DNA of 64,000 nt from an uncultured Myxococcales bacterium. Its GTDB lineage: Bacteria; Myxococcota_A; UBA9042. Positions within the stretch are counted from its first letter, which is position 1; each line of letters begins with the position of its first letter. A program made the position numbers and the translations under genes. This document shows positions 29,700-60,405 of the stretch, one piece after another. The stretch covers positions 310,001-374,000 of the forward strand of contig CAIMLR010000047.1 in the NCBI GenBank assembly GCA_903842345.1, given 5' to 3'. The notes below the pieces were generated by a model. That model had not been told where the DNA came from. It saw only the letters and a program-made list of their open reading frames with translations, and ran no database searches.

Positions 29700-29774
29700 G
29701 CGCGCATAACTCAGCGGTAGAGTATCACCTTCACACGGTGGGAGTCCTAGGTTCAAATCCTAGTGTGCGCACCA
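29700..29774 (+). tRNA. tRNA-Val (anticodon CAC)
   Basis: The cloverleaf folds fully. The acceptor GCGCGCA (29700-29706) pairs with TGTGCGC, the D arm is ACTC/GAGT, and the anticodon stem TCACC/GGTGG has loop TTCACAC, giving anticodon CAC. The T arm is CTAGG-TTCAAAT-CCTAG. CCA is encoded at 29772-29774. It is the apparent integration site of the island on its right, whose integrase gene points towards it. Confidence 0.95.
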
Positions 29775-29776
29775 AG

Positions 29777-29803
29777 AAAGCCTTCGGAAACGAAGGCTTT
29801 TTT
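29777..29803 (+). terminator. Rho-independent terminator after tRNA-Val
   Basis: Stem AAAGCCTTCG (29777-29786), loop GAAA, stem CGAAGGCTTT (29791-29800), then a T tract. It sits right after the encoded CCA, so it either belongs to the host tRNA unit or came with the island end. Confidence 0.9.
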
Positions 29804-29981: not shown

Positions 29982-31148
29982 CTATCCCAGCACCCTGCCC
30001 AGCGCCGCCGCCTTGTCCTCCATCGGGATGCTGGCGTAGCGCTCAGTCATCTTGATCGAAGAGTGGCCCATCAATTCCCGAATGGTTATGAGGTCAACGC
30101 CCTCGGAGACGAGGATCGTGTTCAACGACCGCCTCAACACTTGCGGTGTAACCCGCTGACCGACGCCGCGTGCGCCGCTGCAAATGCGGCACGGCTTGGC
30201 CAAAGACTGCTCGACGCGATAGGACTCGCCCTCGGACGGGAACACCAGCGCGCCCTTCCCGTCGTCCCACTGCGGCAGGTCTTTCTTGAGCTGCGCCGTG
30301 TGATGGGCCTTGAGGATCGCAACTAGCTTGGGAACCAGTGGCACCTCGCGCGGCGCGTCCGTCTTGGTGAGTTCCAGTTTGCCGTTCGTCGCGCTGAACT
30401 GCAGCTTGGCGCTCGGATGCGGCCCGTCCAGGCGCACGTCTTTCCAATGGAGGCCGAACGCCTCGCCGGACCGACACCCGGTGTAGGCGAGGAATGTCAG
30501 TTCAGCATGTCGCAGCGGCTGGTGGACCTGGACCGCCGTCAGGAAGGCTTCCAACTGCGGCCTCTTCAAAGTCTTGGTCTCGCGGACGCGGGGTGCCGTG
30601 ACCTTCGGGGCCGTCACGCGCGCGGTCGGGTCGTGCGGCAACCGGTAGCGAGCGACCGCGTCGCGCAGCATGTGCGTCATCGTGCGCCACCAGCCCATCA
30701 CCGTGTCCGGGCTGTATGGCTTGCCCGACTTCTGCTTGTGCCCTTCCGCCCACGCGACCCATTCCTCGACATCCTCCATGTTGACCTCATCAAGGCGCAG
30801 GCTGCCAAGGTCCCGTCCGGCGCGCACCAGGACCGGCAGGCAGTGTTCCTCCAGCCGATGCTTCATCTCAGAGATCACGCTCTCACGGTTGCGTTTCTTC
30901 TTCCGTGCCAGCCACGTGTCGCAGTAGTCGACCACGGTAGGGATTTCCGGCGGCAACGCCGGGTCGTTCGCTGCCAGCGACTCCTTCAGCTCGGCCACCA
31001 GCCGGATCGCGTCCCGCTCGCTCGCGCCCACCGGCAGCATTTGCCGCTTTTCCACCTTCGCCCCGTCGACCAGGCACGATACGCGGACGAACAGCCTGCC
31101 GTCGGGAGCCCGAAACACGTTGCTGTACTTTGTCTTCTTTCCTTTCAT
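29982..31148 (-). CDS. int: Tyrosine site-specific integrase of the island
   Basis: 388 residues. The N-terminal arm- and core-binding regions are followed by the catalytic domain: the first Arg in AYTGCRSGEAFGLHWKDV, then TPQVLRRSLNTILV, LMGHSSIKMTERYASI with the late His and the nucleophile Tyr. The usual HxxR box reads QVLR here, so the first histidine is replaced by Gln, an unusual but not unknown substitution. A CRIC cysteine pair lies before that box. The gene ends about 200 bases from tRNA-Val and reads towards it, as expected of an integrase adjoining its attachment site. The start at 31148 lies inside the upstream HTH frame. Confidence 0.88.
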   Translation of the reverse strand: MKGKKTKYSNVFRAPDGRLFVRVSCLVDGAKVEKRQMLPVGASERDAIRLVAELKESLAANDPALPPEIPTVVDYCDTWLARKKKRNRESVISEMKHRLEEHCLPVLVRAGRDLGSLRLDEVNMEDVEEWVAWAEGHKQKSGKPYSPDTVMGWWRTMTHMLRDAVARYRLPHDPTARVTAPKVTAPRVRETKTLKRPQLEAFLTAVQVHQPLRHAELTFLAYTGCRSGEAFGLHWKDVRLDGPHPSAKLQFSATNGKLELTKTDAPREVPLVPKLVAILKAHHTAQLKKDLPQWDDGKGALVFPSEGESYRVEQSLAKPCRICSGARGVGQRVTPQVLRRSLNTILVSEGVDLITIRELMGHSSIKMTERYASIPMEDKAAALGRVLG

Positions 31149-31722
31149 TCAAGTTCTCCTTCACGTAAGCGTCGAGGGTCTCGCGGGCGAAAAGGTAGCT
31201 GCCGCGCCTGCCATTGCGGCCATCGGGCACGAGCAGCCCTTTTTGGACCAAAGCCCGGATACTGCTGGTCCCGGCAAGCCTGAGAAATCCAGCCGCATCC
31301 GCAGTCGTGTAGTACGGCTGCGCGCCGGTCGGGGACGAGACGGACAGCGCATGCTCGCGACGAGGCTGCTTGGGAGGGCCTTTGATGGCGGTCGCATCGT
31401 CCCGCGCAACACACTGTTTTGCGTACCTATCCAGGGTTTCGCGACTGAAGAGCCAGGGACCGTTAGGGCCTGCACGACCGTCAGCCTTCAGCTGGCCGCT
31501 CTCAATCGCGAGGTGGATATGCTCGACAGAGTCCAGCCCCAGGTACGCTGCTGAGCACGCCGGGTTGAACCACGTCGGGACGCCATTCAGGACCGGCGGC
31601 TTCTTTACGGCGACGAAGCGCCGGCGTGGCGTCTCCTGCGGAGGCGGGGAATCTGCGCCGGCGATGGGTGATGCCGCCGTGCCGGTCACGTGGGCGTAGA
31701 GGCTGGCTTCCTTGTTCAGCAT
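30883..31722 (-). CDS. Tandem HTH excisionase-like DNA-binding protein
   Basis: Two copies of an excisionase/MerR-like helix-turn-helix occur in one protein. The first is around NPACSAAYLGLDSVEHIHL...SGQLKADGR...LFSRETLDRYAKQ. The second is YYTTADAAGFLRLAGTSSIRALVQKGLLVPDGR...LFARETLDAYVKENL. Each ends with the same F-x-R-E-T-L-D-x-Y helix, so they are a duplication. Beyond the second copy the frame stays open for about 265 bases inside the integrase gene. The biological end may be near 31145, by frameshift or by use as a short protein. ATG 31722 follows GAGGT; ATG 31854 would add 44 plausible residues. A role in excision control or repression of int is inferred. Confidence 0.65.
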   Translation of the reverse strand: MLNKEASLYAHVTGTAASPIAGADSPPPQETPRRRFVAVKKPPVLNGVPTWFNPACSAAYLGLDSVEHIHLAIESGQLKADGRAGPNGPWLFSRETLDRYAKQCVARDDATAIKGPPKQPRREHALSVSSPTGAQPYYTTADAAGFLRLAGTSSIRALVQKGLLVPDGRNGRRGSYLFARETLDAYVKENLNERKEDKVQQRVSGSRRQAVRPRIVPGRRGEGGKAANAAGGRERAGRDPAGGRAEGVAGSERPGVAAGNPYRGRLLRHVAGTEEETQP

Positions 31723-31854
31723 CGGGTTCAGACCTCGGTGGAGCTTGGCTGCGTCGCGTTCACGCCGCACGGCGACGTACCACGACACGATCCCGTTGCG
31801 ATACCGCGTACTTGGAAACGAGATCGAGATCCAGTACTTACAGGTGCCAGCCAT

Positions 31855-32940
31855 GAGTGCCGGAACCGGCCACACGGACAGCCTGCACCGCAAGCTCTCG
31901 ATCTGATTTCTGATTCTGAGGAAAGGCGGACTTGAACCGCCAGGACGGGGTCGACTTGACGCCCATCGGGCACGCCGCGGCCTACTGCTCGGCCCGGTGC
32001 TGCGGACGATTGTATCGGCGACGACGGCGCGCGTCACGCCAGAAGTGGCGGTGAGATAGCACGCCTTGCAGGCCGGTAGCTGCGCCTCTACCGCGTGCTC
32101 ACCTTCGTCACGCGTTTGCGCGGCGCGACGGCCGCCAATCTCGCACTGAGAGAGCCACAGCATGGCGTGTGACAGCTTGATCTGCCGGCGGTCACGGAGG
32201 TCAAGCCGGCGGCACAGCCGGGGCGGTCACGTTGGTCGGGGTGCTCAAGGCGGGCAGGTACGGTCAGCGCGGTAGCCGCCCAACGCCGGCACAGCGTGGG
32301 TCTCGCGCAGGTCTGGCGCGGGTCGGCCGGAGGCCGTCGGCGCGAAAGGCGCGTGGCGGCACGCGCCGAACTGTGTTCATCATCATCATTAGATTCAATT
32401 CCTTACAACACTTCACTTCCCTACGTAGAACATCCACGTAGGGGGTAAACAGATAGGCGGCGGCGGCAAAGCAAGCCGTCGCCAATAAGTTGACCTGCCT
32501 ACGCGGACGTCGGGCCGGCAAACTGCCGTGACCGACCCGACCGACCTTCCCGGTAGCGCGTGGCCGCGCAGGCGCGGACGTGCGCATGTACTCGTTATCG
32601 TCGGGCTCGCGCGGCTGATGCCGGCGTTCGTCCGCGTGCCGCGATAACCGTACTGCGGACATGCTGTTGGCGACGTCTCTGAACTCGGCGGAGGCTTGGT
32701 AAAGGTGTGAACGGCACAGCCGATTGTCCCGTTGCAAGAATGACGCAGTCGTTCGAGCTTGGTTATCCGCCTTTCGCTGTTAGGCTCGTTGTGCCGACCG
32801 CGATCGGCTCTTTGGATGTGACACCTTGCACCTTCTCCTTCATCAACGCAGCCGCCTGAACGTGTTCGTTGCCCTTGCTGGTTGTCCAGGGTCTGCGTGT
32901 CGCGCTCGTTCAGGTGGCTGCGTTGACGTTGGAGGCCCCG
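31855..32940. other. Long non-coding control region between integrase block and polymerase
   Basis: About 1.1 kb between divergent transcription units with no supported gene. It contains clustered CGGTCACG-type repeats (near 32190-32235), an AT-richer patch at 32385-32460 in an otherwise GC-rich region, and a hairpin with 8-bp arms at 32419-32443. This layout fits an origin, transfer or regulatory region of the island, but nothing proves it. A short T-arm-like palindrome near 31926 does not extend into a tRNA. Confidence 0.45.
32419..32443. repeat. Inverted repeat CCCTACGT/ACGTAGGG
   Basis: A perfect 8-bp inverted repeat with 9 bases between the arms, within the AT-rich patch about 500 bases upstream of the polymerase gene. 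No T tract follows, so a terminator is unlikely; a protein-binding or origin hairpin is possible. Confidence 0.6.
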
Positions 32941-34995
32941 ATGGGAACTCGTCGCTCGTACGCTGATGACCTGCTGGACGCGCACCTGCCGATGCCCGAG
33001 GACGCGATGTCGCGCACCGTTCGCGTGTTCGGCCTGGAGCTGGTGCCCACGCAACCGCGCTGCCTGCTTCAGTACCGGAAGGGCGTGTACGCGCACCGCC
33101 TCCAGTTCGACGTCGGTCTTGCCGGGCCTCCGGTCGACGCGCTCTTCCGCGACCACGTGCTGACGCACCTGCAGGCGTCTGGCTGCAACGTCCGCAAGAC
33201 CGATTCATACGTCTCCCTGCTGCAGAACCTCTGCTTCACGCTGGCGCAGGCGCACGCCGATGCGGTCGCCTATGGCGTGCCGGTTGTGGTGACGTTCCAC
33301 AAGAGTCGCTCGGCCTACACGCGGCAGATTGGTACTTCCGACGCCATGCCCGGCTTCTGCGTCGTCGACACGCTGTTCCGTGCGCTCGATGAACTCGGAC
33401 TGGCGGTTGTGACGCCGTCGACGGTCGACGGACAGCTTTCTTCCATTATCAGTACTGATAACTTCCTTTCGTTCGATCAAGACCTCTCGCCCGTCATCCT
33501 CAGCCGCAACGGCCAGGTCTGCGTGATGTCGGCGCGCGCGAAAGTGAAGGGCGAGAAGGTCCCGACCGGCGAGATGACCAAGACGGGGCGCCGGGCGATG
33601 CATACGCCCGTTACCAAGGGCGGGCACCAGCGCATCGCGATGGCGAAACTCGTGCGTGCCGAGCAGCGCTTCCTGCAGCACGAGTCGGACAAGTTGACTG
33701 TCGCCAACACGCTTCTGTCGCGCTGCCGCCTCGCCTTCTGCGATGGCAAAGGTCGTTGGCACCGGTACTTCGCTGGCAACCTGCTGTATCGCGCCGTGTG
33801 GAATGACGGCGACACCGACCACGGCGGCCGCAACTTCTGCCGCGGTCAGAATCTGCCACAGCGCTGCATGGTGCCGATTCGCGAGACGCTGCACATGGCG
33901 CTGGAGGGCCAGGTGATGCGCGCGCTCGTGGAAGTCGACTACAAGAACTTGCACATCAGGATGCTGTACGCGCTGGTCGGCGACGTGCTCGCTGACGACT
34001 TCGATTGCTACGACATCCCGATTCCCGGCTGGCCCAAGTGCAAGGCCGTGCGCGACTTCCTGAAGGTGCTGCTGCTGGCGCTTCCCAATTGCGGCAACAA
34101 GAACGCGGCACCGGAGAAGAATCTGCAGACGGCGCACGCGATGGCGCGCAAACAGTACCGGGATTGGCAGGGCGCGGCGGTCGAGAACGACCCGGACGGC
34201 AGCCTCACGCGTGCGCAGCGGGCGGAGCGCCGGTTGCCCGATGGCGTCACGCCCGCCACCGTCATCCACGCCATCGTCGCGGCGCACCGTCCCATTGCTG
34301 AGCACCTGTACACCGGCAAGGGTCTGGAGCTGCAGGCGGTCGACGGACAAATCGCCCGCAACATCTTGTACCACTTCGCGCTCAAGGGTGTGCCGGTCGT
34401 CTGTATCCACGATTCTTTCATGATTTTGCCGGATTACGCCGACGAACTGCGCGCGCTCATGGTTTCCGAGTACCGCGCCCAGATGCAGGCCAGCTATCCC
34501 GACCTGTACGACGGCAGCGCGCCGGTACCTGAACTGAAGGACAAGAAGCGCAAGTGTTTGCAGCCCATTCCCGCGGACCTGTACGAGTCCATCGCCAACC
34601 GGACTGTGCCGCGCAACGAGGACGCCGTGCTGGCAATCGCAGCGGCTGCACCCGCGGCCGCCGACTCGGTCATGGTCGAGGCCGCCACCGTCAAGCCTGC
34701 TGCCTTCGAGGCCGCCGCGGTTCACCCGGCCGTCGTTTCACACGCAATCGTCGTCGTGCCACCGGCCGCAGAGGTCTTGCCACGCGCTCGCCTCGCGTCG
34801 CCCAATCCCGGTGTGCTTCAGGTCACGACGTCTGTCCTGCCCGCGGGCGCCGGACGTCTTTTCAGCCGCTTCGGCGCGTTCGACCCGTCGCTCGAGCGCC
34901 ACTTGGCGTCCCGCGGCACAACTTTATCAGCGCTGATAATGAGATCTGTAACCGCATACACGGCCGAACCGCCGTCTGGAGCATCCGATGTCTGA
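32941..34995 (+). CDS. Palm-domain nucleic acid polymerase-like protein (family A / T7-like motifs)
   Basis: 684 residues. Three segments fit the palm and fingers of the family A polymerase/T7 RNA polymerase superfamily in the right order. Motif A is LVEVDYKNLHIRMLYALVGD (Asp333), a motif B helix is R371-x3-K375 in VRDFLKVLLLALPN, and motif C is VPVVCIHDSFMILPDYADEL (His490-Asp491). The HDSF form resembles phage-type RNA polymerases more than the HDE of Pol I. No 3'-5' exonuclease motif was seen, and the first 320 residues are unrecognised. An Ala/Val/Pro-rich tail follows residue 560. The ATG at 32941 follows GGAGG. It is probably the element's replication or priming polymerase, which is inference. 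The gene carries two copies of the island palindrome. Confidence 0.7.
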   Translation: MGTRRSYADDLLDAHLPMPEDAMSRTVRVFGLELVPTQPRCLLQYRKGVYAHRLQFDVGLAGPPVDALFRDHVLTHLQASGCNVRKTDSYVSLLQNLCFTLAQAHADAVAYGVPVVVTFHKSRSAYTRQIGTSDAMPGFCVVDTLFRALDELGLAVVTPSTVDGQLSSIISTDNFLSFDQDLSPVILSRNGQVCVMSARAKVKGEKVPTGEMTKTGRRAMHTPVTKGGHQRIAMAKLVRAEQRFLQHESDKLTVANTLLSRCRLAFCDGKGRWHRYFAGNLLYRAVWNDGDTDHGGRNFCRGQNLPQRCMVPIRETLHMALEGQVMRALVEVDYKNLHIRMLYALVGDVLADDFDCYDIPIPGWPKCKAVRDFLKVLLLALPNCGNKNAAPEKNLQTAHAMARKQYRDWQGAAVENDPDGSLTRAQRAERRLPDGVTPATVIHAIVAAHRPIAEHLYTGKGLELQAVDGQIARNILYHFALKGVPVVCIHDSFMILPDYADELRALMVSEYRAQMQASYPDLYDGSAPVPELKDKKRKCLQPIPADLYESIANRTVPRNEDAVLAIAAAAPAAADSVMVEAATVKPAAFEAAAVHPAVVSHAIVVVPPAAEVLPRARLASPNPGVLQVTTSVLPAGAGRLFSRFGAFDPSLERHLASRGTTLSALIMRSVTAYTAEPPSGASDV
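33446..33461. promoter_or_regulatory. Island palindrome, copy 1 (TTATCAGTACTGATAA)
   Basis: A perfect 16-bp palindrome inside the polymerase gene (codons for SIISTDN). One of four island copies sharing TTATCAG-NN-CTGATAA. No promoter is obvious beside it, which favours a structural or partition-type site over a simple operator for this copy. Confidence 0.75.
34925..34940. promoter_or_regulatory. Island palindrome, copy 2 (TTATCAGCGCTGATAA)
   Basis: A perfect 16-bp palindrome in the last codons of the polymerase gene, 47 bases before the ATG of the next gene. Identical to copy 3. Confidence 0.8.
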
Positions 34996-35665
34996 CCAAA
35001 TCGTGTTGACCAAGGACGCGCCGCCCGCGCCGGAAACCGTACTGCGCTGCCCAACCGTCCGCGCCTGCGTATTCCTGTGTGGCGAACAGATGTTCGCCCG
35101 AATCGAGTTCGCGGCCACCAGCAAGTTCGCCGTCACGATCGAAGCGATCTCGTTCGACCTGACGCTGGCGCATGACGCGGTCGCCGTCACGGTCCCGCCG
35201 CTCAACATGGCCACCACGTACAACGAACTGTTGGTGGTGGTACAGGCGCGCATCGCGTTGCTCGAGCCGCACGCAGCGGCGATCCGGCTGTCCGGCGATT
35301 TGGCCGTGGCGGCAAAGGCGACGCACGCCACCCGCACCACCATCACGGCGCCGGGCGACGTCAGGAAGAACGACCGGCTGGAGGCGACGATTGCGTGCAA
35401 CATCGACCCGACGTGGTTGCCCGTGCTCGCCGCGATCGACGCCGAAGCGCTGCACAACGACGGTGTGTTCGGCCACATCCAGCTCACGCGGCTGCTAGTC
35501 GGCAAGCCGTATCCGCCCGGCACGGTCGTTGACTTGGCCGACGCCGTGCAGTGGCCGCGCATCCCCGTCGCTTTTCGCGACTTCTTTCCGCCGGTCAGCC
35601 AAGGCAAGCGCCTTCCGGCCAAACGTTGGCAGCGGCCCGACGGTAATGTTCCGGCGAAGCGGTGA
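34988..35665 (+). CDS. Unknown island protein downstream of the polymerase
   Basis: 225 residues, not recognised. Sequence character: mixed alpha/beta with a conserved-looking N-terminal strand set (CVFLCGEQMFARIEFAATSKFAVTIEAISFDLTLA) and no signal peptide, membrane segment or cysteine cluster. The start overlaps the polymerase stop by 8 bases, so it is translationally coupled to it and may be its partner. A palindrome copy lies 47 bases before its start. Confidence 0.6.
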   Translation: MSDQIVLTKDAPPAPETVLRCPTVRACVFLCGEQMFARIEFAATSKFAVTIEAISFDLTLAHDAVAVTVPPLNMATTYNELLVVVQARIALLEPHAAAIRLSGDLAVAAKATHATRTTITAPGDVRKNDRLEATIACNIDPTWLPVLAAIDAEALHNDGVFGHIQLTRLLVGKPYPPGTVVDLADAVQWPRIPVAFRDFFPPVSQGKRLPAKRWQRPDGNVPAKR

Positions 35666-35820
35666 TGGAACAGGTCCAGCGCGGTACTTGCCAGGCCAAC
35701 GGTCGACATGCCCGCGGCGCATCCCGGCACCCGGCCTCCTGCCAAGACGTTTGCTCCCGGCGACTCCGACGTGGAGTTTCAAGGCAGATGCGCACTTCCC
35801 ACTCACCGCGAGGCCAAACC

Positions 35821-36642
35821 ATGCACCAGCCCTACTACCGCGCGCCCACGTCGATGCGCTTCCTGGACCAGCCCACGCCGGACGCACCAAAGCGCGGCAA
35901 GGCCAAGAAGCGCCGCGCCACTCGACAGGTCGCGCCGTTCCCGCTGACGGTGTTGGCCGAACTGTTGGGCTGCCACGCCGCCACGCCATACGGTGCGGCG
36001 AAGAAGTTCCGTCTGGCTGTTTGGGTGCGTTCGCGTGTGCGCGAGCAGTTGACGGTCGGCGCCGGCTACGCGGTTGGCGTGGAGATGGAGCGTGCGGTCC
36101 GGTTCCGTCGCGCCGAGCTCGAGCGCCATGCGCGCTTCGTCCTGGCGCTACGCGCCGACCATCAGGGAAAGCCACTGGACGGCGTAGCGCTCGCGACTGC
36201 TTTGGAAATGCCTTCCTGGCGGAGCGGCCCCGACTTCAAGGTGGTCTGGCTGACGTACGTCGGCGCGCTCGCGGAAGAGTTGGTGGGCATGTGCCGCCTC
36301 GGCAACCTGGAGGACTTGCCGCGGCGTAAAGCCGAAGCCTACCTCGACCAGACGGTGGCGCCGCGCGTGCGGTCGCTCAGGCGAGTGGACCCGGACGCAG
36401 AGTCGCCGCTACCCAACAGGTTTGGTGGCCTCCGGCGTACCTGGAGAATCGTGAACGGCTTGACGTCCGCGAACCCCGAAGTCGTGACGGCGACGCTGCG
36501 AAGCTGGGAAGTCGAGCGACTGAACTGGCTGGATGCGCCGGATCCCAGCGGATGGGAAGAATGGGGCGACGAGGCAGATCGCCCGCGCACCCAACCCAGC
36601 GACGCCATCGACGGCGCCTGCGCTACTGAGAGACGACGTTGA
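35821..36642 (+). CDS. Unknown basic island protein
   Basis: 273 residues, not recognised. The N-terminal 40 residues are strongly basic (PKRGKAKKRRATRQ), followed by a helical region with FPLTVLAELLGCHAATPYGAAKKFRLAVW, a length and pattern compatible with a helix-turn-helix, and a hydrophilic C-terminal tail. The ATG at 35821 was chosen because the composition becomes protein-like from there. A DNA-binding role is a guess. It precedes the ParB-like gene. Confidence 0.5.
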   Translation: MHQPYYRAPTSMRFLDQPTPDAPKRGKAKKRRATRQVAPFPLTVLAELLGCHAATPYGAAKKFRLAVWVRSRVREQLTVGAGYAVGVEMERAVRFRRAELERHARFVLALRADHQGKPLDGVALATALEMPSWRSGPDFKVVWLTYVGALAEELVGMCRLGNLEDLPRRKAEAYLDQTVAPRVRSLRRVDPDAESPLPNRFGGLRRTWRIVNGLTSANPEVVTATLRSWEVERLNWLDAPDPSGWEEWGDEADRPRTQPSDAIDGACATERRR

Positions 36643-36695: not shown

Positions 36696-37421
36696 GTGAT
36701 TCGCCAATTGCCCATCGAACCCGTGCCTCTCGGCGCGATTATTGACACCGGTGGTGGGCTCGAACCCTTCTACCGAGTTCTCGGCGACTTGGGTCCGCTC
36801 AAGCAATCCATCCGCAAATACGGGTTGATGGTGCCCCCCACCGTCTGGAAATTGGATGGCGACGCCTCGCACGGTGCCGGCGCGCAGTACGCCATCATCG
36901 ACGGAGCGCGCCGAATCGCAGCGCTGCGGGAACTGAGAGCGGAAGCTGACGACCTATTGCAGTCACCGGCAACTGTGGCCTGCAGCGTGTGCGCAGCAGA
37001 CCTTGCGACAGCAAAAATCCTCAGTATTCACGCGCACGAGGAGCGCAAGCGGGCCAAGAAGGCACGCCCCGGCCACGTGGCCGAAGTGGTGCAGCGTTTG
37101 CTGGAAGAAGGAAAAAAGCAGCGGGAGATCGAGAAGTTGCTTCATATTTCTCAAGCGACGGTCTCGACGCTCAAGACGCTGTCGGACTGGTTGACCTCCG
37201 ACGCGATGCACGCGCTGCAATCTGGCGACATCACCATGAACGACGGACTGCGCCTTGTCGCGATCAGCAAAGAGCGACGCATCGCCAGCCCGGCCAACAA
37301 GATGTGCAGTAACCAAGAGATTGAACTGTTCCAGAACAAGCAGCTCGCCGCAGTCGTGGCGCACAATCGCAGCCGCACGTGGAAAAGCTCGCGCGAGAAC
37401 GGGAGAAAAGCGCGCGCCTAG
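36696..37421 (+). CDS. ParB-like nuclease-domain/partition protein
   Basis: 241 residues. The N-terminal ParB/Srx domain is visible: IRQLPIEPVPLGAI, LGPLKQSIRKYGLMVPPTVWKLD, and the box IIDGARRIAALREL, which corresponds to the GERRxxA motif of ParB. A helix-turn-helix follows (QREIEKLLHISQATVSTLKTLSDW). No ParA ATPase gene was recognised next to it. Solo ParB-like proteins in mobile elements act in maintenance or transcription control. The GTG start follows GGAGG. The 16-bp palindromes on this island are the right size to be its binding sites, which is an inference. Confidence 0.75.
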   Translation: MIRQLPIEPVPLGAIIDTGGGLEPFYRVLGDLGPLKQSIRKYGLMVPPTVWKLDGDASHGAGAQYAIIDGARRIAALRELRAEADDLLQSPATVACSVCAADLATAKILSIHAHEERKRAKKARPGHVAEVVQRLLEEGKKQREIEKLLHISQATVSTLKTLSDWLTSDAMHALQSGDITMNDGLRLVAISKERRIASPANKMCSNQEIELFQNKQLAAVVAHNRSRTWKSSRENGRKARA

Positions 37422-57643: not shown

Positions 57644-57793
57644 TAAACAGATCGAGAGCCTCGCGCCGCCACCACGGATGAATTGGCGGCCTTCTGCAAA
57701 AACGAGGGCAGTTCTTGGGATAAGAGCCGTGTGCCGGTGGAGTTCGCCGTCACGTAGTGCCCATTTCGTCCCATTTTCAGGAGCTTCTACACC

Positions 57794-58003
57794 ATGCAGA
57801 TCAAAATCCTCCGCCTCGGTCACTCCGCCCGCCATCACGAAGCCGCTGCCGGCGCCACCGTCGGTGAAGTCCTCGACGCCGTCGACCTGCCTGCCGCCGG
57901 CCACGCCATCTCGGTCAACGGCCTCGGCGCCAGCACGACCACCGGCCTCAGCGACGGTGACGTCGTCACGCTGGTCCCCAAGGTCGAGGGCGGCAGCAAG
58001 TAG
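57794..58003 (+). CDS. Ubiquitin-like modifier (beta-grasp, GG-SK end)
   Basis: 69 residues with the beta-grasp pattern of ThiS/MoaD/ubiquitin-like proteins: an opening MQIKILRLG strand, a helix with TVGEVLDAVDL, an AISVNGLGAS strand and a DGDVVTLVPKVEGGSK end. The Gly66-Gly67 pair is followed by Ser-Lys, so the modifier would need trimming to expose GG, and a JAMM peptidase is encoded two genes on. The ATG is preceded by CAGGAG. It is the first gene of the ubiquitin-like operon. ThiS or MoaD itself is unlikely, because no thiamine or molybdopterin gene is nearby. Confidence 0.8.
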   Translation: MQIKILRLGHSARHHEAAAGATVGEVLDAVDLPAAGHAISVNGLGASTTTGLSDGDVVTLVPKVEGGSK

Positions 58004-58034
58004 TCCCTGTCCCGCAACACGATTCGCCGCTGGG

Positions 58035-58058
58035 CCGCATCCGGTGCGTCCGGAGCGG
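58035..58058 (+). other. Intercistronic hairpin 1 (Ubl to E2)
   Basis: CCGC-A-TCCGG / CCGGA-GCGG with loop TGCGT: nine pairs and one bulge, ending 24 bases before the E2-like start. First of four such hairpins in this operon. Confidence 0.75.
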
Positions 58059-58082
58059 TTCGGCTGGCGGGGAGACAACGTC

Positions 58083-59099
58083 ATGCACCATTGTGACCAA
58101 ACCATGGCCGCGTACCTGCTCGACTGGCAGGCAAAGCTCGGCCTGGACATCCGCTACCAGCGCTGGAGTGCGCGCTACACGGACCCGGCGGCGTTTCGCC
58201 GCGAGATTGAACTGCTCGGCCCAATCGCGGGTACGGCAGACGAGTGCCGGCTGCCGTACAAGGACGGCGTCCAGACGGTCAACGTCGTGCACGGCCGGCC
58301 GCACACGGGCGAGCCGGTGGAGTTGGGTATCGACGGCGAGACGTTTGTCGTCGCGTCCGTTGAAGGGCGCCGTGTGCGCTTGGCGTTCGATCTGGAGCGC
58401 CTGTTTGAAGTGCCGGGCGAGATCCAGCCGGGCCTCATCTTGGAAGCCGTACTCGGCGCGGCGCTGCCTCTCGCGGCGACGTACATTCAGGGCTACGACT
58501 GGCAGCGCGAGAAGGCGGAGTTCTCATCGTGGATGGTGTCGTCGGTCGACGGCATGGTCCGCAACTGGAAGAACGCCATCCGCGACAACGAGTACGAAGC
58601 CAACCGGCTCACCAGCCAGATCTCCGGTCTGGTACGCAAGAACGGCGAGTTGCGCGAGCAGATTGTGGCGCTTGAAGCCACGACCCGCCCGGCGCAGGAA
58701 GTCAAAGCCGCGGAAGAGTTCGCGGCGCTGGTCAAGATGATGCCGTCACCGGTCGTCAGCGTCGAAGTCGACTACGGCAAGCTGAGCATCGTGCTCGAGC
58801 CGCTCACCTTGGAGCACGACAGCACCGACTACGCGATGGGCTCGTACACGCTGACGGTGACGGCCGACAAGGTGCACATCTGGTCGGACGGCGGCTTCAG
58901 CTACCCGCATCCGCACGTCAGCAGTGACGGCGTTCCGTGCTGGGGCAACCTCGGGCCGGGCATCGGCAAGCTGCTGGGCGAGGGCCAGTACGCGGCGTTG
59001 GTCAGTGTCATCATCGAGTTCCTGCACAGCTACAACGAGCGCGACGCCTACCGTCACATCGAGACCTGGTCTGAGGACTACAACAGCGACGACGATTAA
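58083..59099 (+). CDS. E2-like ubiquitin-conjugating protein with long N-terminal extension
   Basis: 338 residues. The C-terminal part has a UBC-type active site: HPHVSSDGVPCWGNL (H276, C286), matching the HPN-x4-5-G-x-C-L pattern of E2 enzymes with Cys286 as the thioester residue. It is followed by a helix like that after E2 cysteines (QYAALVSVIIEFLHSYNERDA). The first 210 residues are not recognised. They include a predicted coiled coil (about 150-210: WKNAIRDNEYEANRLTSQISG), so the E2 may be tethered to a target. A normal E2 is about 150-170 residues. The ATG at 58083 follows GGGGAG. Confidence 0.7.
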   Translation: MHHCDQTMAAYLLDWQAKLGLDIRYQRWSARYTDPAAFRREIELLGPIAGTADECRLPYKDGVQTVNVVHGRPHTGEPVELGIDGETFVVASVEGRRVRLAFDLERLFEVPGEIQPGLILEAVLGAALPLAATYIQGYDWQREKAEFSSWMVSSVDGMVRNWKNAIRDNEYEANRLTSQISGLVRKNGELREQIVALEATTRPAQEVKAAEEFAALVKMMPSPVVSVEVDYGKLSIVLEPLTLEHDSTDYAMGSYTLTVTADKVHIWSDGGFSYPHPHVSSDGVPCWGNLGPGIGKLLGEGQYAALVSVIIEFLHSYNERDAYRHIETWSEDYNSDDD

Positions 59100-59121
59100 C
59101 GTCGGACGCGCGAACAAGACG

Positions 59122-59158
59122 GCCCCGGCTGCCCGTGAAGTACGCGGACAGCTGGGGC
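59122..59158 (+). other. Intercistronic hairpin 2 (E2 to JAMM)
   Basis: GCCCCGGCTG (59122-59131) pairs with CAGCTGGGGC (59149-59158): ten pairs including one G-U, with a 17-base loop. It ends 13 bases before the GGAGG of the JAMM gene. Confidence 0.8.
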
Positions 59159-59179
59159 TTTGTCGCTTTTGGAGGCAGC

Positions 59180-59779
59180 ATGAAAGTGAAACAGAACCTG
59201 CGGGTTCGCATCGACGCAGACGCGATGGAGCGCATCTGGCACTGGACCGATTTGGCGGCCGGCGAGTTCTCCTGCCTGGGCACGGTCACGGACGACGTGC
59301 TCGTCGGCAACGTGCAGCTGTTCGACCAGATCTGCACGGCCGCCAGCACGGAGCTGGACCAGGAGGCGCTGGCGAAGTTTCTGGTCACCCACCCGGCGCC
59401 GCAGAACGTGCGGGCATGGTGCCATTCGCATGCACGTCTTGGAGTTTTTTGGTCGCAGCAGGACGAGGCGTGCATCGAGGGCCTGGCGAACGACCAGTGC
59501 CTCGTCAGCATCGTCGTCAACAAGAAGCGCGAGTTCAAGGCGCGGATCGACGTGTGGCAGCCGTTCCGGCTGACGTTCGACGACCTGCCGCTGGAGATCC
59601 GCCTTCCGGACCAGAACCTGCGCGGCGAGTGCGAACGGCTGTTCAACGCGCACGTGGTGGAGATGCAGCCGGTACTGATGCCGGACTGGCGCGGCGGTGT
59701 TCGGCAGCCGCAGCAACAGGGTCAACCGTATCGGGGCGGTTGGCAGGACTTTGACGACGACCTTGCGGACTGGAGGTAG
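59180..59779 (+). CDS. JAB/JAMM-family isopeptidase (deubiquitinase-like)
   Basis: 199 residues. The JAMM zinc site is complete: Glu29 in AAGEFSCLG, then H82-S-H84-x7-S92-x2-D95 in CHSHARLGVFWSQQDEA. Such metalloproteases trim ubiquitin-like precursors or remove them from targets. The C-terminal 50 residues are Gln/Gly/Asp-rich. ATG 59180 follows GGAGG. The gene sits directly before the E1, with 2 bases between. Processing of the GG-SK modifier is the likely job. Confidence 0.85.
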   Translation: MKVKQNLRVRIDADAMERIWHWTDLAAGEFSCLGTVTDDVLVGNVQLFDQICTAASTELDQEALAKFLVTHPAPQNVRAWCHSHARLGVFWSQQDEACIEGLANDQCLVSIVVNKKREFKARIDVWQPFRLTFDDLPLEIRLPDQNLRGECERLFNAHVVEMQPVLMPDWRGGVRQPQQQGQPYRGGWQDFDDDLADWR

Positions 59780-59781
59780 CG

Positions 59782-60405
59782 ATGAACTTTCACAGACAGC
59801 TTGACGTACTGGACGTGCCGCGGCTCGCGCGGACGCCCATCACGGTCATTGGCGCGGGCGCGGTGGGCAGCTTCACCGTGCTGGCGTTGGCGAAGTGCGG
59901 CGCCACCGACATCACGGTCTGGGACGACGACAGCGTCGAGAGCCACAACCTGCCGAACCAGTGGTACCGCCTCACGGACCTAGGGCGGCCAAAGGTGCAG
60001 GCATTGAAGGCGTTGGTGCTGGAGATGACGGGCGTGGACATCAAGGTCGCGCAGGAACGCTTCCAGGGCGACGGCGCGACTGAGGTGACGATCTGCTGCG
60101 TCGACAGCATGGACATCCGGATTGCGCTTTGGGGGCAACTTCATCCACGGCCAACGCTCTACGTTGACGCGCGGATGGGAGCTGAGGTCGGCAAGGTCAT
60201 GTGCGTGGGCGCGTTTGGAAGCTGGTATGAAGAAACGCTGCACCCCAGCTCTGAGGCTCACCGCGCACCCTGCACGGCGCGGGCGACCATGTATTGCGCC
60301 AGCGGCCTCGCAGCCTTCATCGCCGGCCAAGTGGCGAACTACGCCAGCGACCGGCCCACCCGGGAAGAGATGACCGTGGATTTTCACAACGGAATCATTC
60401 TCTAA
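59782..60405 (+). CDS. E1-like activating enzyme (ThiF/UBA family), short form
   Basis: 207 residues. The Rossmann motif TVIGAGAVGS (G24-x-G26-x2-G29) binds ATP. DDDSVESHNLPNQWYRLTDLGRPK has the Asp/Arg/Lys pattern of E1 adenylation sites. TICCVDSMDIRIAL carries the later conserved Asp, and YVDARMGAEVG follows. Candidate thioester cysteines are C164 (APCTARATMYC) and C172. It lacks a separate catalytic-cysteine or ubiquitin-fold domain, so it is a minimal E1. It should adenylate the GG end of the modifier and pass it on to the E2-like protein. Confidence 0.85.
   Translation: MNFHRQLDVLDVPRLARTPITVIGAGAVGSFTVLALAKCGATDITVWDDDSVESHNLPNQWYRLTDLGRPKVQALKALVLEMTGVDIKVAQERFQGDGATEVTICCVDSMDIRIALWGQLHPRPTLYVDARMGAEVGKVMCVGAFGSWYEETLHPSSEAHRAPCTARATMYCASGLAAFIAGQVANYASDRPTREEMTVDFHNGIIL

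Follow-up and report, generated by a model that had tools for sequence, protein, structure and literature searches.

The divPolA2 proteins were described in 2024 from Barba18A and its relatives, the barbaviruses, and from other Caudoviricetes phages (PMC11348598). In the portions of that paper that were available, they are depicted as a palm that lacks the thumb and exonuclease of PolA, together with an N-terminal domain of no recognised kind, and the authors weigh repair DNA polymerase against RNA polymerase as the function, leaving the matter unsettled. Phages that encode divPolA2 can possess a separate DNA polymerase, and the surroundings of the gene vary, as is apparent both from the same parts of that paper and from the phage loci included here. 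A search of the open-access literature (subscription papers and supplementary tables lay outside its scope) found the name only in that paper and in the preprint PMC11188092. In that literature the family is undescribed outside phages, and its occurrence in bacterial integrative elements is new here.

Three other groups of polymerases are relevant. The TV-Pols, as presented in the available parts of the 2008 description (PMC2579912), have a minimal PolA/T7 RNA polymerase core and are encoded by mobile elements with integrases; they possess an arginine before motif A, two aspartates, an RxxxK motif and no fused nuclease. CcPol-MP and the PolA-SSB primases of SCC-like elements, for which excerpts of PMC7581432 and PMC10061031 were available, pair a PolA-superfamily polymerase with a small gene downstream of it, within an integrative element, and serve as a model for a self-priming replicase. 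The following gene of the PolA-SSB primases encodes an OB-fold SSB. N4 RNA polymerase II (gp15/gp16) and T7 RNA polymerase belong to the same superfamily as the polymerase described below and share with it a His-Asp motif C and an RxxxK motif.

The window analysed in this study, a stretch of 64,000 nt in all, derives from an uncultured Myxococcales bacterium, a lake bacterium. The polymerase gene occupies positions 32941-34995 of the forward strand, with 684 codons and no stop, and its assignment to divPolA2 draws on a PHROGs match, alignment with a second copy, and an AlphaFold model with structure searches. A longer mechanical ORF begins with TTG at 32869; the start at 32941 is supported by a methionine at the equivalent position in the second copy, which is 66% identical and resides in the same genome. 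Values of dN/dS for three pairs of polymerase copies were approximately 0.31, 0.21 and 0.19. Purifying selection acts on these copies, and the open frame and the dN/dS values together rule out a pseudogene.

No match to the window protein was obtained in Pfam (none at E 1), in NCBIfam or in a single-sequence search of the PDB. Exonuclease families were likewise unmatched in Pfam, in agreement with an earlier note, made from the sequence alone, which had seen no proofreading motif. A PHROGs search aligned residues 281-510 with phrog_4756, to which no function is assigned there (E=1.2e-25), and gave a weak match to an 'RNA polymerase' family (E=0.002). All 19 members of alignment A1, of phage and bacterial origin and including the Barba18A protein, matched PHROG 4756. 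Judged by these profile matches, the window protein is a member of PHROG 4756, that is divPolA2, a named family, and not an orphan. The earlier note had mentioned distant relatives in mobile elements and could name no characterised one; such relatives do exist, but the family to which they belong has a name (PMC11348598, in the parts available).

Conservation was counted in 22 family members, eight repeat or near-repeat entries (the same genes under other locus identifiers) having been omitted. Residues N256, G296, R297, D333, Y357, K375, H490, D491 and S492 are invariant in all 22; R371, D468 and N383 are present in 21, and H338 in 20. The G-G-R at residues 295-297 (33823-33831, forward strand, as are the motifs that follow) is probably the positional equivalent of the conserved arginine hairpin of the PolA/T7 RNA polymerase superfamily, to judge from the available parts of PMC2579912. 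Motif A (D333-x4-H338-x2-MLY, residues 333-343) is situated at 33937-33969, motif B, or the fingers helix (R371-x3-K375-x7-N383), at 34051-34089, and motif C (H490-D491-S492) at 34408-34416; in the model described below, motif B lies in a helix of residues 368-383 and motif C in a strand-turn-strand. The L-Q-x2-D at residues 464-468 (34330-34344) contains the conserved D468, and its Q465 is found in 14 of the 22 members, with Met in the remaining eight. By eye, Gln465 aligns with Gln849 of Pol I and His784 of T7 RNA polymerase. The order of palm motifs reported in the earlier note was borne out, with D333, R371-x3-K375 and H490-D491-S492-F493 correctly placed. Of its IHDSF motif C, HDS holds throughout the family, but the F of HDSF is found in just 11 of the 22 members. 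Conservation of the motifs across these members rules out a chance match.

An AlphaFold2 model of the polymerase, built on an 8-sequence alignment, had a mean pLDDT of 64 and a pTM of 0.60. Palm and fingers (residues 311-540) had block pLDDT values of 72-97, except for a dip to 60 near residues 411-420. Past residue 550 the model is a disordered tail, of which residues 551-648 (34591-34884, forward strand; pLDDT <50) are of low confidence, probably disordered and missing in most relatives. The top match of the model in VIA-align 2 was Taq Pol I (Z 14.6, rmsd 5.0, 263 residues); yeast mitochondrial RNA polymerase (Z 13.0, rmsd 4.3, 270 residues) and T7 DNA polymerase (Z 12.5, rmsd 3.6, 232 residues) were also matched. 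Foldseek comparison of the full model with the PDB gave low TM-scores, about 0.2. In a viral structure library the best matches were uncharacterised phage proteins of 400-450 residues and a 'DNA polymerase' of Barba31A, and the closest predicted viral structures include phage divPolA2 proteins, with E values down to 2.3e-17. The palm that the earlier note had proposed to seek by AlphaFold and structure search is present, and the window protein is confirmed as a right-hand palm polymerase.

The N-terminal part, of which that note described 320 residues as matching nothing, has indeed no family match, but residues 58-200 folded alone gave a winged-helix-like model of modest confidence (pLDDT 72, pTM 0.66), with elements in the order helix, helix, strand, helix, helix, strand, strand. 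Within it, the putative winged-helix-like unit at residues 87-171 (33199-33453, forward strand; helix-strand-helix-helix-strand-strand) was delimited at low confidence from the separate fold model and from structure and profile searches. Foldseek retrieved mostly MarR-like winged helices, none with E <0.1, and all VIA matches had Z values of 6.7 or less, with ribosomal protein eS19 first and Orc2, LmrR and MarR-family winged helices among the rows. The family profile retrieved only eS19 among PDB sequences (E 0.66 and 0.76), in the same stretch as the structural match, and the N-terminal profile a single DNA primase chain at chance level (E=0.3). This family-specific domain may be a winged helix, a reading taken here as no more than a lead.

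The polymerase gene resides in an integrative element adjoining a tRNA-Val gene (29700-29774). The tRNA call and a repeat search identified attL, a 57-bp exact repeat of the 3′ part of this tRNA-Val and the bases after it, at 29727-29783 (forward strand). Because the repeat recurs exactly beyond the window, as attR at window coordinates 86748-86804 (G000:C47:396748-396804), the element is 57 kb long and extends out of the window. A tyrosine integrase is encoded at 29982-31148 on the reverse strand (Pfam Phage_integrase, E=5.4e-18; phrog_1 integrase, E=6.4e-47). Beside it, also in reverse, is an excisionase-like HTH_17 ORF (30883-32163; PF12728, E=3.5e-10), which has an uncertain start, a 3′ part overlapping the integrase ORF and a partial relative in L015. 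The polymerase gene lies 3.2 kb inside the element, at the integrase end and outside the defence block. It is followed, on the same strand, by the gene for protein X (34988-35665; 225 aa, function unassigned), the first 8 nt of which lie within the polymerase gene. Protein X has a 41% identical relative in G004:C205 and no family match in Pfam; two matches to PDB sequences (E 0.73 and 1) are at chance level. The gene for protein Y (35662-36642, forward) begins 4 nt before the end of that for X, and Y has relatives on four other contigs of the genus (E 8e-61 to 2e-34); it is a backbone gene that these elements share. A ParB-like protein with an HTH is encoded at 36696-37421, again forward (phrog_1033, E=4.9e-13; parB_part, E=4e-6, under the cut-off), and has a 40% identical relative in L015. 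Since their genes overlap, the polymerase, X and Y are probably transcribed as one unit.

Genes of the element (44) were called with our own codon-usage script, and 40 of the 44 were scanned with Pfam, the others being the small genes at 31120, 46749, 54579 and 84729 (window coordinates). Among those 40, no primase, replicative helicase or PolA-family match was found. Phage structural genes are absent from the same 40, which rules out a prophage and sets the gene apart from those encoded by Caudoviricetes phages. The cargo includes ApeA/HEPN, SNF2 plus DUF4391 near HKD/DrmD-type helicases, a type III restriction-modification pair and a type IV HNH-type restriction gene, followed by ThiF, Rad52-type and PD-(D/E)XK nuclease genes; the matches of the SNF2 and type III Res proteins are to models of defence systems. 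The defence cargo is dense over the element as a whole (29727-86804, ending at G000:C47:396804) and also includes PDC-S39, with AbiEii at the far end. A second divPolA2, a distant paralogue, is encoded in the same element at window coordinates 67956-69905 (L025:5956-7902). It falls in a separate clade (tree support 1.0), and its surroundings (a 214-aa protein, ThiF, Rad52, nuclease, HTH and ParB-HTH) recur in G001:C53 at 67-95% identity. In the region 57678-60405 of the window, the genes at 57678, 59135 and 59782 (ThiF) are 85-91% identical to counterparts in G004:C236, where they adjoin a Y gene; this degree of identity points to recent transfer from one species of the genus to another. Five regions of G001, G002 and G003 with the right-flank gene were searched for an empty att site, and neither tRNA-Val nor the 57-bp core was found in any of them; synteny thus differs, and these regions permit no inference on insertion. 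In the relatives the left- and right-flank genes are on different contigs.

It is apparent that the window protein resembles phage divPolA2, in the available account (PMC11348598), in its palm core with motifs A, B and C, in the lack of a 3′-5′ exonuclease, in having its own N-terminal domain, unrecognisable as a PolA thumb, and in the presence of several paralogues per genome. It differs in length, with 684 aa and a C-terminal tail compared with about 420-450 aa, and in being carried by a bacterial integrative element beside a tyrosine integrase; its neighbours are X, Y and the ParB-like protein, and sister elements substitute PolA modules. With the TV-Pols it shares the minimal core, the mobile setting with an integrase and the set of motifs listed above, but it has no Pfam PolA match and carries Asn at K+8 and His at D+5, unlike the TV-Pols in the parts of PMC2579912 available. 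TV-Pols have a D5-like helicase, fused or adjacent, or else a helical N-terminal domain together with an integrase or resolvase; among the 40 (of 44) scanned element genes no D5 helicase was found, and an integrase is present. The likeness to CcPol-MP and the PolA-SSB primases (PMC7581432 and PMC10061031, excerpts) lies in the gene arrangement within an integrative element, whereas the window polymerase is far more divergent, no D5/DUF927 helicase was found, the host is not one of the Bacillota, and X, by sequence, has no match to an OB fold or to any other family.

The family is present at four places in the genome from which the window derives. In a draw of the phylum, 8 of 377 genomes had a match, and these include all five genomes of the window's Myxococcales genus. 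Six loci were found on named genome contigs: three 'uncultured Myxococcales' contigs, a Bacteroidetes MAG, Pseudidiomarina halophila and a deltaproteobacterial MAG. Matches were also found in 146 of 50,697 phage records (at E 0.01) and in one of 72,556 plasmids; IMG/VR scans with P0001, A4, A6 and two single phage proteins gave no confirmed match. Of these loci, L008 (Thioclava) has lost its 5′ end, where an IS21 pair adjoins it, and L014 begins at a contig edge. The truncated divPolA2 gene of the Thioclava electrotropha plasmid is situated at L008:9620-10600, and the same plasmid also encodes an integrase, AbiE proteins and a DNA methyltransferase that shares 33% identity with the type III methylase of the window.

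Six element pieces of the genus, the window's included, share a related integrase. Three of them (the window, G004:C204 and G002:C207) contain divPolA2, and three (G002:C166, G004:C205 and G001:C33) contain short PF00476 polymerases of 630-646 aa. In G002:C166, a PF00476 DNA polymerase (E=4.9e-23) lies between an integrase and a Y protein that are 63% and 49% identical, respectively, to those of the window; G004:C205 has an integrase 58% and an X protein 40-41% identical to the window's, together with its PF00476 polymerase. The integrase of G001:C33 is just 25% identical to that of the window, and its polymerase adjoins a CHC2-Toprim-DUF3987 protein with relatives in G004:C205 (37% identical, beside the PF00476 polymerase) and G002:C206 (81%). 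DUF3987 was found in three of the five genus genomes, always on contigs of the PolA type, and not in the window's genome; in the genus, contigs with phrog_4756 and those with an extra short PF00476 polymerase never coincide. A Toprim-DUF3987 primase-helicase with a short PolA forms an alternative replication module in related Myxococcales elements (L090:3781-8264, L091:2909-7350 and L075:8934-13396). A protein with two CxxC pairs, with no convincing Pfam match in scanned members, is encoded near divPolA2 in four pieces (L027:7441-8637, L015:8968-10269, L014:942-1985 and L072:874-1932), with a relative near the PolA module of L075 (16846-17403). Its presence near both polymerase modules is one more sign of a shared backbone. 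An argument of the same type, from one polymerase replacing another at a single site of a common backbone, was used for the TV-Pols (PMC2579912, in the parts available). By this analogy, the exchange seen here, in contigs that are fragments, suggests functional equivalence, which would in this case lie in DNA replication or priming.

Sugar selection in this superfamily is aided by the residues at D+5 of motif A and K+8 of motif B, which are Glu710 and Tyr766 in E. coli Pol I and Gly542 and Tyr639 in T7 RNA polymerase. In divPolA2 they are His (20 of 22 members) and Asn (21 of 22), respectively. Among T7/N4-type RNA polymerases, Tyr occupies K+8 in eight of eight and Gly occupies D+5 in all five in which motif A was found; the pattern was located in five of eight RNA polymerases and five of six PolA proteins, the unmatched rest being uncounted. 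Two short PolA proteins have Phe at K+8. The His/Asn pair matches neither Pol I (Glu, Tyr) nor the T7-like RNA polymerases (Gly, Tyr). A simple Pol I was ruled out by the His at D+5, where Pol I has Glu, and by the lack of a Pfam match to DNA_pol_A (PF00476). In hhalign comparisons, three of four family profiles aligned with T7-type RNA polymerase at E 0.0014-0.0072, N4 RNA polymerase II at 0.012-0.086 and PolA at 0.042-0.26, and the fourth fitted none (E 0.45-0.52). The RNA_pol family PF00940 matched one of four scanned members below the cut-off (E=0.0087), the RNA polymerase family phrog_414 two of 19 members (2.4e-5 at best) and a DNA polymerase PHROG one of 19 (0.024). A PF00940 search of the genome gave no match, and the controls were silent too. 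These profiles lean slightly towards RNA polymerases. The earlier note had taken HDSF to point to phage RNA polymerases. That motif is not decisive: at the positions that select the sugar the protein resembles neither class, and its genomic setting speaks for DNA replication. As these residues fit neither class and the profiles lean weakly towards RNA polymerases, a DNA product is argued for by context.

Direct observation covers the palm motifs with their conserved residues, the match in fold, the purifying selection, both att sites and the swap of modules among sister elements, and in our view the chances are about even that this divPolA2, a PolA/T7 RNA polymerase core with no proofreading domain and with its own N-terminal domain, synthesizes DNA for the element. 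The integrase, together with the HTH protein, would cut the 57-kb element out at the tRNA-Val att sites. The polymerase, presumably co-transcribed with X and Y and encoded near the ParB-like gene, would then make DNA on the element's own template, in place of the PolA and primase-helicase module of the sister elements; its N-terminal domain may recruit it to the origin or template, and it could perhaps start strands with no primer. We infer the DNA nature of the product, replication of the element, the primer-free start and all of the partner roles. The polymerase is situated where sister elements keep their DNA-replication genes and therefore probably copies the element's own DNA; the interchange of divPolA2 with PolA/primase-helicase modules favours DNA synthesis over transcription. 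The fold matches to Taq Pol I and T7 DNA polymerase and the glutamine shared with Pol I at residue 465 also speak for this reading. Several findings run against a replicase: in fold, mitochondrial RNA polymerase comes almost as near (Z 13.0), eight of the 22 members have Met in place of Q465, the D+5 and K+8 residues are unlike those of DNA polymerases, the profiles lean towards RNA polymerases, phages with divPolA2 can encode their own DNA polymerase and place the gene in variable surroundings, the sister contigs are fragments, and no empty att site was found.

Some of these findings would suit a single-subunit RNA polymerase specific to the element, like that of N4 (RNA polymerase II) or T7, which would transcribe the island or make RNA primers. 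The HDS of motif C as in T7 RNA polymerase, the weak matches to RNA polymerase families and the mitochondrial enzyme among the structural matches are in its favour, and the authors of PMC11348598, in the available parts, considered such a function. We nevertheless regard it as unlikely, given that DNA polymerases and a primase-helicase occupy its place in sister elements and that the T7/N4-type Gly and Tyr are replaced by His and Asn; overall, hhalign similarity to those enzymes is E 0.0014 or worse. We would attach a similarly small probability to repair, gap-filling or translesion synthesis, or to a role as defence cargo. The island is rich in defence genes, two paralogues reside in one element, and in phages with their own DNA polymerase the surroundings of divPolA2 vary (PMC11348598, in part), but the order integrase, polymerase, Y is constant while the type of polymerase changes, and the window gene lies at the integrase end, away from the defence block. 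The unusual D+5 and K+8 residues might even indicate a catalytically dead polymerase acting as a DNA-binding regulator, which is highly improbable with both metal-binding aspartates, R-x3-K and the GGR arginine retained in 21 or 22 of the 22 members and dN/dS well below 1. The palm polymerase of a mobile island proposed in the earlier note is upheld; among the roles suggested there (replicase, primase or transcriptase of the island), the context leans towards DNA replication. A bolder and rather doubtful extension is that divPolA2 represents another type of primase-polymerase: a replicase of mobile elements, guided by a winged helix and independent of primers, that would alone replace primase-helicase and PolA and would select nucleotides through its His/Asn pair, which neither the DNA nor the RNA polymerases of the superfamily have, perhaps using both dNTPs and rNTPs.

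Taken together, the polymerase is real; it comes from a recently named family and is not categorically new, and what is added here is a new setting and a clue from context to its function. Whether divPolA2 is a repair DNA polymerase or an RNA polymerase is an open question in print (PMC11348598, in the parts available). The element family offers a contextual lever on it, since one backbone carries either divPolA2 or PolA and primase-helicase modules, and makes its function testable outside phages. The odd residues at both sugar-selection positions would, in addition, shed light on the shifts of this superfamily between DNA and RNA synthesis.
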